Positions 3,097 through 52,062 of a stretch of 64,000 nucleotides of DNA are shown here, one piece after another. Source of the stretch: Dehalococcoidia bacterium (GTDB lineage Bacteria > Chloroflexota > Dehalococcoidia > E44-bin15); assembly GCA_035528575.1 (NCBI GenBank), contig DATKYK010000036.1, forward strand, positions 62,001-126,000, given 5' to 3'. A program made the translations under genes and the position numbers. Below the pieces are notes generated by a model. That model was not told where the DNA came from. It did no database searches and saw only the letters and a list, made by a program, of their open reading frames with translations. Each line of letters starts with the position of its first letter. The first letter of the stretch is position 1.

Positions 3097-4818
3097 ATGA
3101 GCGCAGATGAAAGGTATGATATTGTAATTGTAGGCGGTGGCTTCAACGGCGTCACAACCGCAGCCTATCTCGCCAAGTGCGGGCTGAGCGTGTGCGTGCT
3201 GGAGGAGAGGGTGGAGTGCGGCGGCGCGTGTGAGAGCACCGAGCCATTAGCCGGGGTGCGTATAAATCCCCATGCCATCTTGATGTATGGCGGACCGGCC
3301 CCCGGATTCGAACAGCTAGAGCTCTGGAAGTACGGCTTCCGAATGGACTGGAGTCCATTCATGGAGGATCTAACCAAGCAGGTGGGCAGGGGTGCTTTGA
3401 CCACCGAGGGGATGCTGCCGATGAGCGAAAAGGACATAATGGGCTGGGCCAGGATAACCGGCATGCTCACCGATCCCCCGTTCCTGTACGAGCTGCTGCG
3501 CGCCACCTTCTGGTGCCCGCCTCACCCCCCGGAGGTGGAGGTAAATGCGGAGACCATCCCCTTTATGCAGGTCTACAAGAAGCACGACCCTGGCCTGTGG
3601 ACCGAGGAGCTCCTTGAGATGACCCTGTTTGACCTCATGGACGAGTACTGTGAGACCGAGCACTTCAAGATACAGCAGGCGATGATATGCTGGTACTCAG
3701 GGTCCGCCGCTCACTGGGAGGGAATGGCCATCCCTACCCTCGCCTATAATATAACTCTCTGTCTAGCTGGTAGAGTCAGCGCTCCCCGCGGGGGCATGCA
3801 CGGCTATCTCCACTCCATCTTTCGCTGTGCCGTCGACCATGGTGCGGTGTTCCGCACCTGCTGCCCGGTTGATGAGATCATCGTCAGAAGCGGACGGGCG
3901 GTGGGGGTACGCCTCAGGGATGATGCCGCTACAGCGGAGAAGACGATATGGGCGGACAAGGCGGTGATCAGCGATGTTGACCTCAAGCAGACCTTTAATA
4001 AGCTCATCGGGCCGCAGCACGTGGACAAGAGCCTCCTGCAGCGCGTCAATGACATCAGTCTCAAGGGGGGGAGCATCTACGTTAGCCACATCCTCACCCG
4101 CGAGAAGCTCCGCGCCCGCCCCCAGTTCCGCAGCGAGCTTATGGGAGACGAGGCTGGTATCGGGCCCTACCCCTGCGACTCGCGGGAGATCTACTTTGAG
4201 CATGTAGCGGATGTGGATAGTCGTAAAGGCGACCCTACTGTGCCGCCGGAGAGGTTGATGTGGCTGGGAACCCCCTCCAACAGGTTCAACGTCCACCATC
4301 CGCAATGCACCCGACCCGGTCAATATGTTATGTCTCCTTTCTATGTCCTTGTTCCCCCGCCGGAGTATCACGTGGAGAGTCCGGATGCCATAGACAAGAA
4401 GAAAGAGGAGATGAACGCTTACATGCGTAAGGCCTTCAGCCAGGTGATAGAGAACCTCGATTCGGACAACATCGTTTACCACTGGGCCAACACCCCTTAT
4501 GAGTCGGAGTTTCGTAATACCGGTCTCATAGGCGGCACATACTGCGGCACCCGCCAATGCGATGACCAGTGGTGGACCCAGCGTCCCCTGCCCGAGATGG
4601 CTCGCTACCGCACCCCCATCGACGGGCTCTACCTGTGCCACCAGACGGCGGCGCACCCCGGCGGGCTGTGCCTGATGGCCAACACCTACAACCTGATGCA
4701 CAGCCTCATCGAGGATGGGATCGCCGAGCCGGGCGACTGGTGGTACCCGTCGCCATGGTACATACCGGAGAGGGGTAAAATATCGGCGGTGCCCCGTGAG
4801 GGTAAGGTAGCAGCGTAG
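3097..4818 (+). CDS. Phytoene-desaturase-like FAD-dependent oxidoreductase (CrtI superfamily)
   Basis: A 573-residue flavoprotein. The N-terminus carries the dinucleotide-binding fold YDIVIVGGGFNGVTTAAYLA with GxGxxG-type glycines at ~13-18 and the acidic residue after the second strand (VCVLEER), then the GG motif (ECGGACES). The middle (~100-450) matches CrtI/NADP-FAD amine-oxidoreductase-like proteins in length and pattern only loosely. The C-terminus has a second FAD contact region, DGLYLCHQTAAHPGGLCLMA, as in desaturases and retinol saturases. The reaction cannot be told from sequence, since this superfamily also includes non-carotenoid enzymes. No carotenoid genes lie nearby. The start at 3097 is chosen because of the GAAAGGGG ribosome site and the promoter ending at 3066. 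It is a single-gene transcript closed by the terminator at 4855. Confidence 0.8.
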   Translation: MSADERYDIVIVGGGFNGVTTAAYLAKCGLSVCVLEERVECGGACESTEPLAGVRINPHAILMYGGPAPGFEQLELWKYGFRMDWSPFMEDLTKQVGRGALTTEGMLPMSEKDIMGWARITGMLTDPPFLYELLRATFWCPPHPPEVEVNAETIPFMQVYKKHDPGLWTEELLEMTLFDLMDEYCETEHFKIQQAMICWYSGSAAHWEGMAIPTLAYNITLCLAGRVSAPRGGMHGYLHSIFRCAVDHGAVFRTCCPVDEIIVRSGRAVGVRLRDDAATAEKTIWADKAVISDVDLKQTFNKLIGPQHVDKSLLQRVNDISLKGGSIYVSHILTREKLRARPQFRSELMGDEAGIGPYPCDSREIYFEHVADVDSRKGDPTVPPERLMWLGTPSNRFNVHHPQCTRPGQYVMSPFYVLVPPPEYHVESPDAIDKKKEEMNAYMRKAFSQVIENLDSDNIVYHWANTPYESEFRNTGLIGGTYCGTRQCDDQWWTQRPLPEMARYRTPIDGLYLCHQTAAHPGGLCLMANTYNLMHSLIEDGIAEPGDWWYPSPWYIPERGKISAVPREGKVAA

Positions 4819-4854
4819 CGAATAATCGAAGTCTCAGATCAAGAAAGGATAATG

Positions 4855-4890
4855 GCCCCCGCTGTAAAAGGCAGCGGGGGCTTCTCTTTT
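4855..4890 (+). terminator. Rho-independent terminator
   Basis: Perfect 10-bp stem GCCCCCGCTG / CAGCGGGGGC (4855-4864 with 4872-4881), 7-base loop, then TTCTCTTTT. It ends the oxidoreductase transcript, and lies between convergent genes. Confidence 0.85.
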
Positions 4891-47282: not shown

Positions 47283-48260
47283 CTACATTCTCTTTCTTAC
47301 CAGAAGCGAAGCGGGGAGGCTAAACCTGTAGAATGTTCCCGCCGGGTCGGCAATCCCCTCGATCAACTTTGTGACACCTTCTTCCGTCATCTTTTCCTCC
47401 TCCTCAATCCCGAGAATGGAGACGATCATGGAAAGCCCTTTTGCCCCCTGGTCGGTAACGCCATCCACCGGGCCGAAGCAACCGCGGCATGGCTGGTTGG
47501 CTCTAATGCAGGTCTCCCCACACCCGGAACGGCTAGCCGGCCCCATGCAGATCAATCCCTGGTCAAGGAAGCATTTCTCCGGGTCAATCTTGATTTGCCA
47601 CGGCCGCTTTATCTCCTTGATCGACAGTTTATCCGGCCTTGAGTCCTTTCTCGGACAACTATCACACAGGGCTATATTCGGGGCAAGCACCGCCCCTTTC
47701 TCCGGGAGTTTTCCCTCGAGGATGGCGGTTACTGCGTTCATTATCAAATCCGGCGGCGGCGGACACCCCGGCAGGTAGTAATCTACGTCGATGGTCTGGT
47801 CCAGTGTTTTTACCGTATCGTAGAATTCGGGCAGGGTGAGCTCGCCAACATCAACCGTGGTCTTAACTTGTGGGGTGACTCCCTCCGGATTTTCCATGGT
47901 GGGGACTTCTATATATTGCCTTTGAAATATCGTCTCACGGTTCCAGAAGTTTGCCAGCCCCGGTATCCCGCCGAGATGGGCGCAGGCACCGAAGGCAACG
48001 ATAAGCCCGGATTTTTGTCTCAGCAGCTTTACCATCTCCTCCTGCTCTTCTGTCCTCACTGCCCCGTTGATAAAGCTCACCGCTATCTCGCCGTCGGCCA
48101 TCGCCTCGACATCCTTTCGCTTAAAGTCCAGTGCCACTGGCCATAGAACGATGTCAACGGCGTCCGCTACCTTGAGAATATCTTCATTGAGGTCAACCAC
48201 CGTCTCCTCACAGCCACCGCATGAAGCGCACCAGTAAAAAGCCACCTTCGGTTTAGCCAT
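47283..48260 (-). CDS. mvhG: [NiFe] hydrogenase small subunit (MvhG)
   Basis: 325 residues. No Tat signal, so cytosolic. Proximal 4Fe-4S: FYWCASCGGCEE, the conserved ACAHLGG, and PGCPPPPD. Further clusters: CDSCPRKD, CFLDQGLICMGP, CGETCIRANQPCRGCFGP. Carries electrons from the NiFe site to MvhD. Start ATG 48260, preceded by GGGGGTAGAA. First gene of the 21-kb cluster; a palindromic regulator site lies 42 bases upstream. Confidence 0.94.
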   Translation of the reverse strand: MAKPKVAFYWCASCGGCEETVVDLNEDILKVADAVDIVLWPVALDFKRKDVEAMADGEIAVSFINGAVRTEEQEEMVKLLRQKSGLIVAFGACAHLGGIPGLANFWNRETIFQRQYIEVPTMENPEGVTPQVKTTVDVGELTLPEFYDTVKTLDQTIDVDYYLPGCPPPPDLIMNAVTAILEGKLPEKGAVLAPNIALCDSCPRKDSRPDKLSIKEIKRPWQIKIDPEKCFLDQGLICMGPASRSGCGETCIRANQPCRGCFGPVDGVTDQGAKGLSMIVSILGIEEEEKMTEEGVTKLIEGIADPAGTFYRFSLPASLLVRKRM

Positions 48261-48301
48261 TTCTACCCCCTTTGTTATTTTAACAGTATAAAGGAAAGCC
48301 G

Positions 48302-48320
48302 TTGGTGATAAAAGTCACAA
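48302..48320 (-). promoter_or_regulatory. Rex- or Crp/Fnr-like operator upstream of the hydrogenase cluster
   Basis: On the minus strand TTGTGA-N6-TCACCA, followed by A. This differs by one base in the right arm from the Rex arms TTGTGA/TCACAA and also fits TGTGA-N6-TCAC of Crp/Fnr. Downstream on the minus strand are TATACT (48290-48285) and TAAAAT (48282-48277). With the latter as -10, the site would be centred near -41; with the former near -33. No regulator gene is nearby. Confidence 0.5.
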
Positions 48321-49107
48321 AAAACCGACACCCGAGAATAGCTCACGAAGTGGCGGTTCTACTACTATGTTGCGGAAGTGATAAACTACAGGCAACGCTT
48401 GTTGGATTGACTTGGTATTTTATAATTGACGCCTCGCTCAATTCATATTCTTCAGCAGCCAGCTTGCCTGCTCATGGCCTTTTGGCTGATAGGTCTATAC
48501 CGTGTTTAGGGCAAGATGCCTTTACCATCCTTGACTACCTTAATACTTAATAATAGATAAGCTTGTTAATTCATTTACATTCTAGCATTGTAGGCAGAAG
48601 TCGTCAATGCTACCCAATAATATAATATGGAACACCTTGAATGGTTTGCCGGCCCTACCGATGCCGGTCACAAAGTGAATAGTATGCTTTTTGTAGTTAA
48701 AGCGGTATTGAGGTAGGCTGTGGGGGATATAACAGGGGGGCCACCCATTATCGGGTAGCCCTCTATAATCTGCCTGGCTGGGCTTTTTAGCTCACACTTT
48801 CTTCAAACTAAGAGGTACATCTGAAAGAGGTTCTGTGTTTTTTGTAATATTAAGGAGAGAATTCAATGCTACTTTCCTAATACTCGTGAGTACGAGTTTG
48901 AGCCAGTAATCCCAAAAACCCATAGTGTAGTGCTTACAGCCGATAATTATAATCCATCGTATATATCCAATATATCCAAAATGCGATGCCAAGTGTTGGT
49001 GGCGTTAAATCTACGGCTCGCATTTTTCAGTTTTTATCACGGTGCACCTCCATTGATTTATGGACATCTGGACCATAGGTTTCAAATAGAGATTTAAATA
49101 AGTTTAC
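48321..49107. other. Intergenic region, no gene seen
   Basis: About 790 bases between mvhG upstream region and the exporter 3' end. A hairpin (GGGCCACCC / GGGTAGCCC-like) lies near 48738-48765. A 66-codon minus-strand frame at 48792 has no recognisable sequence. Nothing else is supported. Confidence 0.5.
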
Positions 49108-52062
49108 TCATGGGGATTCTGCACGCAATTCTCCTGGCTCTATAGGAGAGTAGTTACGCTTATCCTCAATGATCTCACCATCAAGAAGTCGTATAACGCG
49201 ATCGGCTATTTGCTCAATAAGAGGATTATTGGTGGCAATAATAACAGTCTTGTTATACTTATGGTTTATTTTGCGCAGTATGCTCAGGATTCGCTTTCCG
49301 GTCTCAAAATCAAGTTCGCCGGTCGGTTCATCGCACAGAAGTATAGGCGGATCCTTTGCCAAGGCCACTGCTATCGCTAACCGCTGCTGTTCGCTGCCGG
49401 AGAGCTTATTCGGATAATGGTCAGCATGCTCTTGGAGCCCTAAGAGCTTCAACACTTTCAGGGCATTTCTCGGCCTTTTGACTAATGTAATGGCAAACTC
49501 GACGTTTCCCCTAACTGTTAGCGTTGGTACCAGGTTAAAAGACTGGAAAATGAAGCCGATGATGTTACGCCGGTAAGCGGTTGAACCTTTATTATTGAGC
49601 TTGGTAGCCATGATTCCATTCGATTTGATACTCCCTGAGGTAGGAGATTCGATCCCGCCAACCAGGTTCAACAAGGTGGTCTTGCCCGAGCCATTTGGCC
49701 CTACGATGACTACAAATTCCCCACGTGCCACATCGAGCGTAACGTTCTTAAGCGCTCTCACTTCACCATCCCCAATCCTATATGATCGCGAAACACCCCT
49801 CATTCGCAACGCGAACTCTATCGCCTTGCCAGGTGCCAATTCAGGTATCCCTACAGCACCCCGGGGTGTCCACAACCGCTCCAGGAAGGCAGGGGCCCAC
49901 CAGTTCCACTTTCCCATGATGCGCATCAGCGCAGGGGCCATAAAGACCCGTATGATCGCAGCATCAATGAAGATGGCCAGAGCTAGTGTTACACCGATAA
50001 TCTTCAAAAAAAGCACATCGCCTATAACTAGGCTGCCAAAGACTACGACCATAATAGCAGCAGCACCTGTGATTACCCGGCCTGTCCGCGCTAACCCAAT
50101 ACCCACGCTTCTGGTGTTATCCCCGGTTTTCACCCATGCCTCCCTCATCCTGCTGAGTAGGAATACCTCGTAATCAATGCTTAATCCAAAAATAACGCAG
50201 AAAGCCATTATCGGTATAACAGGTTCTATACCTCCGGTTGATGTGAAATTAAGCACGCCGCTGAAATGGCCCTGTTGAAAAATGAAGACGACAATGCCAT
50301 AGGCGGCAGCGACACTAGCTACATTGAGCACGATAGCCTTGATTGGCAGCAGTATAGATTTAAACAGCCATAATAGGGCCAGAAAAGTAGTTGATCCAAT
50401 AATAAGCAGGATCCATGGGAAATAGCTATATGCCTGATCCATCGAATCTAAATGAAGAGCCGTACAACCAGTAACATGAATTGTTAATCCATCAGGCTCA
50501 AGCTCGCGTATGTAGGTCACTAATTCTTCAGCCTCAGGGGAAAGAGGATCGCTCTTGGTATATACCTGGACCAGGGTTGCTTGGTCCGTGGTTAATTGAC
50601 TAAGAATACCCTTTATTTGTGGATCTTGAATTGAGTCGGGATCGGCATACATGAACTGGTATTGTTCATTGGTTATCGATGGGTCCAGGTTGACTATACT
50701 CTCGATACGGCTAACCTCCTTGTGCTCTTCCACCTCCCGGGTGAAATCATAGAGAGCAGCCACCTTATCTGTATCGAGGATGGTGCTGCGGGTAGTAACA
50801 GCAATCTGGACAGGTGCCAGCTCACCAGCGCCGAATCCCTCACTTAGAACTTCAAAACCCTGCCTCGCCTCGCTTGATTCTGTAACGTCACTGGCTGCCG
50901 TGTTTTGTATATTAAGGCTTAATACCGGCCATGAGAGTAATCCGATAAGCGGTATTACTATTAAGAGAACTATAGCTGGGTGCCTCATCTCCCACCGTGC
51001 CAGCCTATACCAGAATTTACCCTCTCGTTGGGATGGCCGGAAGATGGCCAGCCGGTTTATACGGGGCCCTACGACAGATAGAATGGCAGGGACTAGTGTC
51101 AAACCTGCTGCCAGTGCCATTATAAGCACTGACACCCCACCAATACCAAGGGATCTAAACGCACTCATATTGTAGCTTATGAGCGCGCCAAAACCGATCA
51201 TGCTGGTGAGTGCTGCATAGAATATGGCCTTGCCTGATGTATCAACGGTAGTAGCCAGGCTCTCCTCTATTCCCTTCCCCGCTCTCAACTCCTGCCGAAA
51301 GCGGGTTACCATAATCAGGGCATAATCTATGCTAATAGCGAGCCCAATAAACACTATTACAATCATGCTTGAAGTGGATATCGGAGTAAATTGGACCATG
51401 ATAAATACCAATGCCATGGAAAGTGCTACGCTGGCAGCACCTATGGCTAGGGGGAGCCCGGCAGCCACAAGGCTACCAAAGACTAGGATGAGGATGATGG
51501 CTACAAGAGGGAAAGTATATATCTCCGCCTTTTTCCAGTCAGTCATAACAGACTGTTCAACATCATACCATAGGGCTGCTTCGCCAGTGACGTACGTGGT
51601 AAGATGGGGCTGCGGCTGAAGCCCCTCCCTGATATCGGATACCAACATAGTACCCTCACTTAGGTCTCCATCTACACCAATGACCGCATAAGTAACATGA
51701 CCATCAGCGGAGATAAACCGTGGGTCACCAGTACTACGATAGGTAATGGGAGAGTCTATTTTTTCAATATCCTGCAGGCCGACTAGAGCCTGATCCATCT
51801 CATCCATAAACTGTGGATTATCGGCCCGCAAGCTATCACTGGTAAATACTATCGAAAGTACGGTGGGTCTGATGCCAAACTCTTGCTCGAGAATTCTGTA
51901 TCCATCGGCAGCCTCTCCCGACGTTGTATGGTTGGAACCGGGAGCAAGGGCATTCATCGCCATTGGTCCCACGACTGCACCCACGACAAGTAGAGCACAC
52001 CAGACGTATATAACCGCTCGGCGGTGCCTAAAGACAAAATACCCCAGGCTCTTAAATGACAT
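49108..52062 (-). CDS. MMPL/RND exporter fused to a C-terminal ABC ATPase domain
   Basis: 984 residues. Residues ~1-740 are a full MMPL/HAE3-type RND permease: two halves each with one N-terminal TM, a large external loop and five TMs, including the motifs GLAISIDYALIMVTR and GLSIDYEVFLLSRMR. Residues ~750-965 are an ABC ATPase of the LolD/MacB type: Walker A GPNGSGKTT (~788), Q-loop FIFQSFNLVPTL, signature LSGSEQQRLAIA, Walker B ILLCDEPTGELD. The H-loop His is missing (IIATNNPLIEQ instead of VTHD) and the signature has Ser for Gly, so hydrolysis may be weak. RND pumps use proton motive force and do not carry ABC domains; the fusion is in one frame without a stop. Upstream neighbours unrelated. 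Substrate unknown, possibly lipid. Confidence 0.88.
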   Translation of the reverse strand: MSFKSLGYFVFRHRRAVIYVWCALLVVGAVVGPMAMNALAPGSNHTTSGEAADGYRILEQEFGIRPTVLSIVFTSDSLRADNPQFMDEMDQALVGLQDIEKIDSPITYRSTGDPRFISADGHVTYAVIGVDGDLSEGTMLVSDIREGLQPQPHLTTYVTGEAALWYDVEQSVMTDWKKAEIYTFPLVAIILILVFGSLVAAGLPLAIGAASVALSMALVFIMVQFTPISTSSMIVIVFIGLAISIDYALIMVTRFRQELRAGKGIEESLATTVDTSGKAIFYAALTSMIGFGALISYNMSAFRSLGIGGVSVLIMALAAGLTLVPAILSVVGPRINRLAIFRPSQREGKFWYRLARWEMRHPAIVLLIVIPLIGLLSWPVLSLNIQNTAASDVTESSEARQGFEVLSEGFGAGELAPVQIAVTTRSTILDTDKVAALYDFTREVEEHKEVSRIESIVNLDPSITNEQYQFMYADPDSIQDPQIKGILSQLTTDQATLVQVYTKSDPLSPEAEELVTYIRELEPDGLTIHVTGCTALHLDSMDQAYSYFPWILLIIGSTTFLALLWLFKSILLPIKAIVLNVASVAAAYGIVVFIFQQGHFSGVLNFTSTGGIEPVIPIMAFCVIFGLSIDYEVFLLSRMREAWVKTGDNTRSVGIGLARTGRVITGAAAIMVVVFGSLVIGDVLFLKIIGVTLALAIFIDAAIIRVFMAPALMRIMGKWNWWAPAFLERLWTPRGAVGIPELAPGKAIEFALRMRGVSRSYRIGDGEVRALKNVTLDVARGEFVVIVGPNGSGKTTLLNLVGGIESPTSGSIKSNGIMATKLNNKGSTAYRRNIIGFIFQSFNLVPTLTVRGNVEFAITLVKRPRNALKVLKLLGLQEHADHYPNKLSGSEQQRLAIAVALAKDPPILLCDEPTGELDFETGKRILSILRKINHKYNKTVIIATNNPLIEQIADRVIRLLDGEIIEDKRNYSPIEPGELRAESP

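Follow-up and report, generated by a model that had tools for sequence, protein, structure and literature searches.

Can a proton-driven pump of the MMPL/RND type carry an ABC ATPase in its own polypeptide chain, and if it does, what does the ATPase do there? An earlier note on this DNA, made from the sequence alone, raised the question by describing such a pump joined to a LolD/MacB-like ATPase with a changed signature and without the H-loop His, and by suggesting that the ATPase plays a regulatory or ATP-sensing role instead of driving. In the window, that is, the whole 64,000-nucleotide stretch of DNA that was analyzed, the two parts do occupy one gene (table below), which starts at an ATG and runs for 984 codons with zero internal stops. 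Two stretches of the protein match Pfam MMPL (PF03176, E=1.3e-85), and aa 771-914 match ABC_tran (E=7.7e-33). The description of the ATPase also holds. The best PDB matches of the nucleotide-binding domain (NBD) are MJ0796, MacB, and LolD (1f3o, 1l2t, 7arh, and 5lj9; E ~6e-57 to 5e-40), which belong to the same fold family by sequence. We consider it probable that the fusion is genuine and in frame, that transport by the pump is still proton-driven, and that the orphan NBD drives nothing.

Features of the MMPL-ABC fusion gene, in positions of the window
Feature	Position	Strand	Basis
Whole fusion gene, MMPL/RND pump with C-terminal ABC NBD	49108..52062	-	984 aa, single frame, Pfam
MMPL/RND pump half, aa 1-736	49855..52062	-	Pfam, MmpL3 structure alignment
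Fusion junction, about aa 736-742	49837..49857	-	Pump relatives end, NBD relatives begin
NBD half, aa 742-984, MacB/LolD/MJ0796 type	49111..49839	-	Pfam ABC_tran, PDB matches, 29 aligned relatives
Walker A GPNGSGKTT, aa 788-796, intact	49675..49701	-	PDB and relatives' alignments
Q-loop Gln840, intact, next residue F->S	49543..49545	-	Relatives' alignment
Signature LSGS, aa 887-890	49393..49404	-	LSGG in 54/55 NBDs compared
Walker B ILLCDE, aa 907-912, catalytic Glu912, intact	49327..49344	-	Relatives' alignment
H-loop, Asn945 instead of His	49228..49230	-	His in 54/55 NBDs compared

The junction falls about where the earlier note had placed it, near 49820, and both halves are open through it. 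The closest full-length relative of the pump, which is encoded in genome G194, is 57% identical, unfused, and without an ABC domain; its terminus reads ...FLQRLWGPRESHHEASK, compared with ...FLERLWTPRGAVGIP in the fusion protein, and the N-terminus of the NBD relatives has the form M-S-x-P...GEAGD. Alignment with 29 relatives leaves a linker of a few residues between the pump and the captured ATPase. Because this alignment extends from the leader at the N-terminus of the relatives to the tail at their C-terminus, the ATPase gene must have been captured practically whole. An AlphaFold2 model of the whole fusion, for which four sequences served as input, was discarded (mean pLDDT 45, pTM 0.27), and scans for promoters and terminators, whose counts did not rise above the chance level, were set aside.

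Several features of the pump half are those of an ordinary MMPL protein. Its best structural matches in the PDB are MmpL3, and it has Asp-Tyr pairs (D246-Y247 and D630-Y631) at the positions of the MmpL3 proton relay. The two MMPL halves are common to the fusion and to MmpL3 and other MMPL/HAE-3 RND transporters (Mycobacterium MmpL3, PDB 6ajf and 7c2m), both relay pairs are shared with MmpL3, and the alignment holds throughout to the pump end, ...LMRxxGxxxWWAP. To our knowledge, the known members of the MMPL/HAE-3 group lack an NBD and have a C-terminal tail that is short or unrelated. The closest pump of all, in genome G001, is 74% identical; its contig ends at aa 592, and the remainder is absent from the assembly. 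Measured against this relative, the pump half has a dN/dS of 0.13; it is evolving under purifying selection and looks normal. Judged by its motifs, it should work like other MMPL proteins, with proton-driven transport as the predicted activity. A Dehalococcoidia bin supplies the closest named match, a pump with 40% identity, so the host is probably a member of that class.

The NBD half has kept some of its motifs and lost others. When 55 distinct NBDs from all loci compared are considered, the fusion among them, the Walker A Lys, Q-loop Gln, catalytic Glu, and D-loop Asp are present in 55/55, and the D-loop of the fusion NBD is intact; the signature Gly and the H-loop His are each lost in the fusion NBD only, which bears out both changes described earlier. 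Out of 53 columns that are invariant in all others in the alignment with 29 relatives, the fusion NBD breaks 8, namely S790N, L827S, F841S, E852G, G890S (signature), R899V, H945N (H-loop), and W981A. The number of such broken columns is 0-3 in most relatives, and the outgroup L136 reaches 8, none of them catalytic. In the alignment to MJ0796, the best in the PDB (E ~6e-57 and ~2e-56 for 1f3o/1l2t), the H-loop changes from TH to TN and the signature from LSGG to LSGS, with an indel near neither. Unlike the MJ0796, LolD, and MacB domains, this NBD is fused to an RND pump, and it is without the H-loop His, the second Gly of the signature, and the Arg that is conserved in IARAL. The residues on either side of Asn945 keep one and the same frame in the alignment. 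Correcting the frame would therefore not restore the His, whose recovery by correction the earlier note had named as a possible refutation.

What would these changes mean for the ATPase? Because Walker A, the Q-loop, and Walker B are intact, the NBD is predicted still to bind ATP, and because the H-loop His is missing and the signature carries G->S, it would most likely hydrolyze ATP poorly or not at all. With H-loop substitutions, reported ATPase activities are <0.1% in HlyB, <2% in HisP and MalK, and 8% in MsbA, and Pdr5 is the reported exception, in which ATPase activity survives loss of the His (PMC6222333). For His->Asn at the H-loop itself, we found no ATPase figure in the literature searched. 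The changed signature position appears, in our own reading, to correspond to Gly551 of CFTR, where G551S has been described as a mild disease allele of unclear mechanism (PMC6749054). The degenerate sites of TAP1/TAP2 and Pdr5 resemble the fusion in that they keep ATP-binding motifs and have lost residues of the signature or the H-loop (PMC6222333, PMC8421411), but one site still works in those ABC transporters, which are heterodimers or pseudo-dimers, whereas the fusion is without an ABC membrane domain. Poor ATP hydrolysis is the expected effect of these changes, which makes the NBD an unlikely driver of transport, and to this extent the role proposed in the earlier note stands; its other part, a regulatory or ATP-sensing function of the NBD, is possible, but the orphaning of the NBD, its faster amino-acid replacement, and its lost catalytic and conserved residues fit an inactive, slowly decaying passenger about as well.

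The ATPase has also lost its partner. Its nearest relatives, which are 56-65% identical, come from G006 and G012, both from the same family, and from further families of the class. All those examined are stand-alone ATPases, one of which, in G208, carries a receiver domain. The ATPase gene in these relatives is followed within a few bases by a gene for a ~790-aa permease with FtsX and MacB_PCD domains. Such MacB/FtsX-type exporter ATPases from the same phylum (e.g., L065, L073, and L074) share the N- and C-terminal ends of the fusion NBD and differ from it in being unfused to a pump, in having the permease next to them, and in their intact LSGG and H-loop TH. No ortholog of the permease of the G006 system was found in the genome that encodes the fusion, in which the best match (E=8e-13) is to other FtsX proteins, and no permease remnant was matched downstream (48260-49107) or elsewhere in the 64-kb window. 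Thus, with its cognate permease absent from the genome and no remnant downstream, the fusion NBD is an orphan. The genome does carry several other MacB-type NBDs and FtsX proteins. A match in C25 with two stops, considered as an unfused MMPL-ABC pair, was rejected as an ordinary FtsX-ABC operon. The ~850 bases at 48261-49107 that separate the fusion gene from a hydrogenase-like operon contain no convincing gene and have a lower G+C, about 0.40-0.44.

The fusion is unusual, in keeping with the earlier note, which had called it unexpected. No second MMPL-ABC fusion was found among ~740 distinct genomes of the phylum (a class sample of 393 and a phylum sample of 400). Scoring in these samples was limited to the top two candidates of each genome, so that a fusion whose pump is very different could escape. 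Nor was one found in two complete small orders (15 genomes in its own order and 15 in that of G194), in GTDB 220 contigs, or in viral contigs, and among the best 5000 of 72,556 plasmid records none covers 80% of the fusion query. An earlier report of an MMPL-ABC fusion was likewise not found in a literature search limited to open-licence papers.

Based on these comparisons, we propose that a proton-driven MMPL (HAE-3/MmpL3-like) pump gained an entire MacB/FtsX-type ATPase subunit at its cytoplasmic C-terminus and that the exporter permease was lost from the genome, leaving the NBD orphaned. The proton relay of the pump half would still power transport. The NBD lies on the cytoplasmic side, directly after the amphipathic tail of the pump; it would bind ATP and turn over little or none, and hence would not power the pump. 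If it is active at all, it might pair two pump subunits as an ATP-binding clamp or act as an ATP-responsive gate. We regard a decaying passenger and a nonhydrolyzing ATP clamp or sensor as about equally probable roles for the NBD.

That the fusion was accidental and the NBD is functionless and drifting towards loss has a substantial chance of being correct, just short of even. Such an accident would be harmless because the NBD is located on the cytoplasmic tail, and the loss of the cognate permease, the broken invariant columns, several of them catalytic, and the want of the fusion in any second genome searched are all consistent with it. The terminal branch of the NBD, moreover, is the longest of its clade (0.77 substitutions per site vs 0.03-0.34), and its dN/dS on trios is roughly doubled, at about 0.2 vs 0.09-0.17 in relatives, a contrast that is rough because dS is near saturation. 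On the other hand, Walker A, the Q-loop, Walker B, the catalytic Glu, and the D-loop are all retained, third codon positions are still the most divergent, and there is neither a stop nor a frameshift over 243 NBD codons; neutral simulation yields an open frame in 9% of runs at 0.1 substitutions per site and in 0.8% at 0.2. Taken together, branch length, dN/dS, third positions, and simulation indicate that the NBD was constrained over most of its history and evolved under looser constraint on the fusion branch, which is a single sequence. The argument from the open frame is biased, in that the gene was noticed for being open, and if the fusion is recent, the open frame and the retained motifs weigh little against a passenger. 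As a passenger, the NBD would illustrate the decay of an ABC ATPase after its permease is lost, in which ATP-binding motifs persist and turnover residues do not.

A slightly less probable alternative, to which we give rather less than an even chance, is that the NBD was kept by selection as a nonhydrolyzing ATP sensor or dimerization clamp that would gate the proton-driven pump, with a logic comparable to that of the degenerate ATP sites in asymmetric ABC transporters. The pattern of lost turnover residues and kept ATP-binding motifs, the average constraint still present on the NBD, and the cytoplasmic C-terminus, which is the right side for an NBD, are consistent with such a role, as is the precedent of TAP1, in which a natural H-loop change occurs at a nonhydrolytic ATP site (PMC6222333). 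Against it, no second case was found, and a homodimer would have both sites degenerate, whereas in TAP and Pdr5 one site still works. An ATP-gated RND pump in the full sense, with a built-in nonhydrolyzing ABC ATPase as ATP sensor or dimer clamp, seems unlikely to us; if true, it would join the two great transporter energy classes in one chain. Should the NBD regulate the pump, the gene would represent a natural secondary transporter placed under ATP control through gene fusion and would offer a test of NBD coupling to a non-ABC membrane protein.

We think it improbable that the NBD works in trans with an ABC permease or has a normal NBD of another operon as its partner. Candidate partners exist in the other MacB-type NBDs and FtsX proteins of the genome, but the permease family that belongs with this NBD is missing, the other FtsX systems have NBDs of their own (as in C25), and F841S and E852G, at positions conserved in all relatives, lie next to the Q-loop. 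That the genome, which is metagenome-assembled, holds a chimera or sequencing errors at this place, both foreseen in the earlier note as a false join or a frameshift, is very improbable: the 45 contigs, the estimated contamination of 3.9%, and the uniqueness of the fusion in the data searched would fit, but a chimera needs an in-frame join of the end of one gene to the start of another and, if made to a relative's operon, should bring a permease behind the NBD, the GC3 is similar in the two halves (0.49 and 0.50) with no GC step seen at the junction, the contig extends well beyond the window on both sides, no frame correction is needed anywhere, and errors would require that three separate near-invariant residues (G890S, R899V, and H945N) were all miscalled.

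Other fusions were encountered among the relatives of each half. Long frames of pump relatives (1048-1549 aa) were considered as NBD fusions and rejected; three have a CrtC/lipocalin domain and none has an NBD. In L139 (786-4265, minus strand), the MMPL pump reads on into a lipobox-like stretch and then a CrtC/lipocalin domain (Pfam PF07143 and PF17186), and L137 (2756-7402, minus strand) and L138 look similar by eye, so that a different C-terminal MMPL fusion exists in the same phylum. On the ATPase side, L068 of G208 (3445-4890, plus strand) combines an N-terminal response-regulator receiver domain (Response_reg, E=7e-26) with an ATPase of the same subfamily (ABC_tran, E=3e-37); it lies upstream of its permease, and its signature and H-loop are intact. 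In G001, a tyrosine-recombinase-like gene (L009, 2542-3276, minus strand) adjoins the 74% identical pump gene. Both the pump and the NBD are patchy in the family, which may reflect horizontal transfer.
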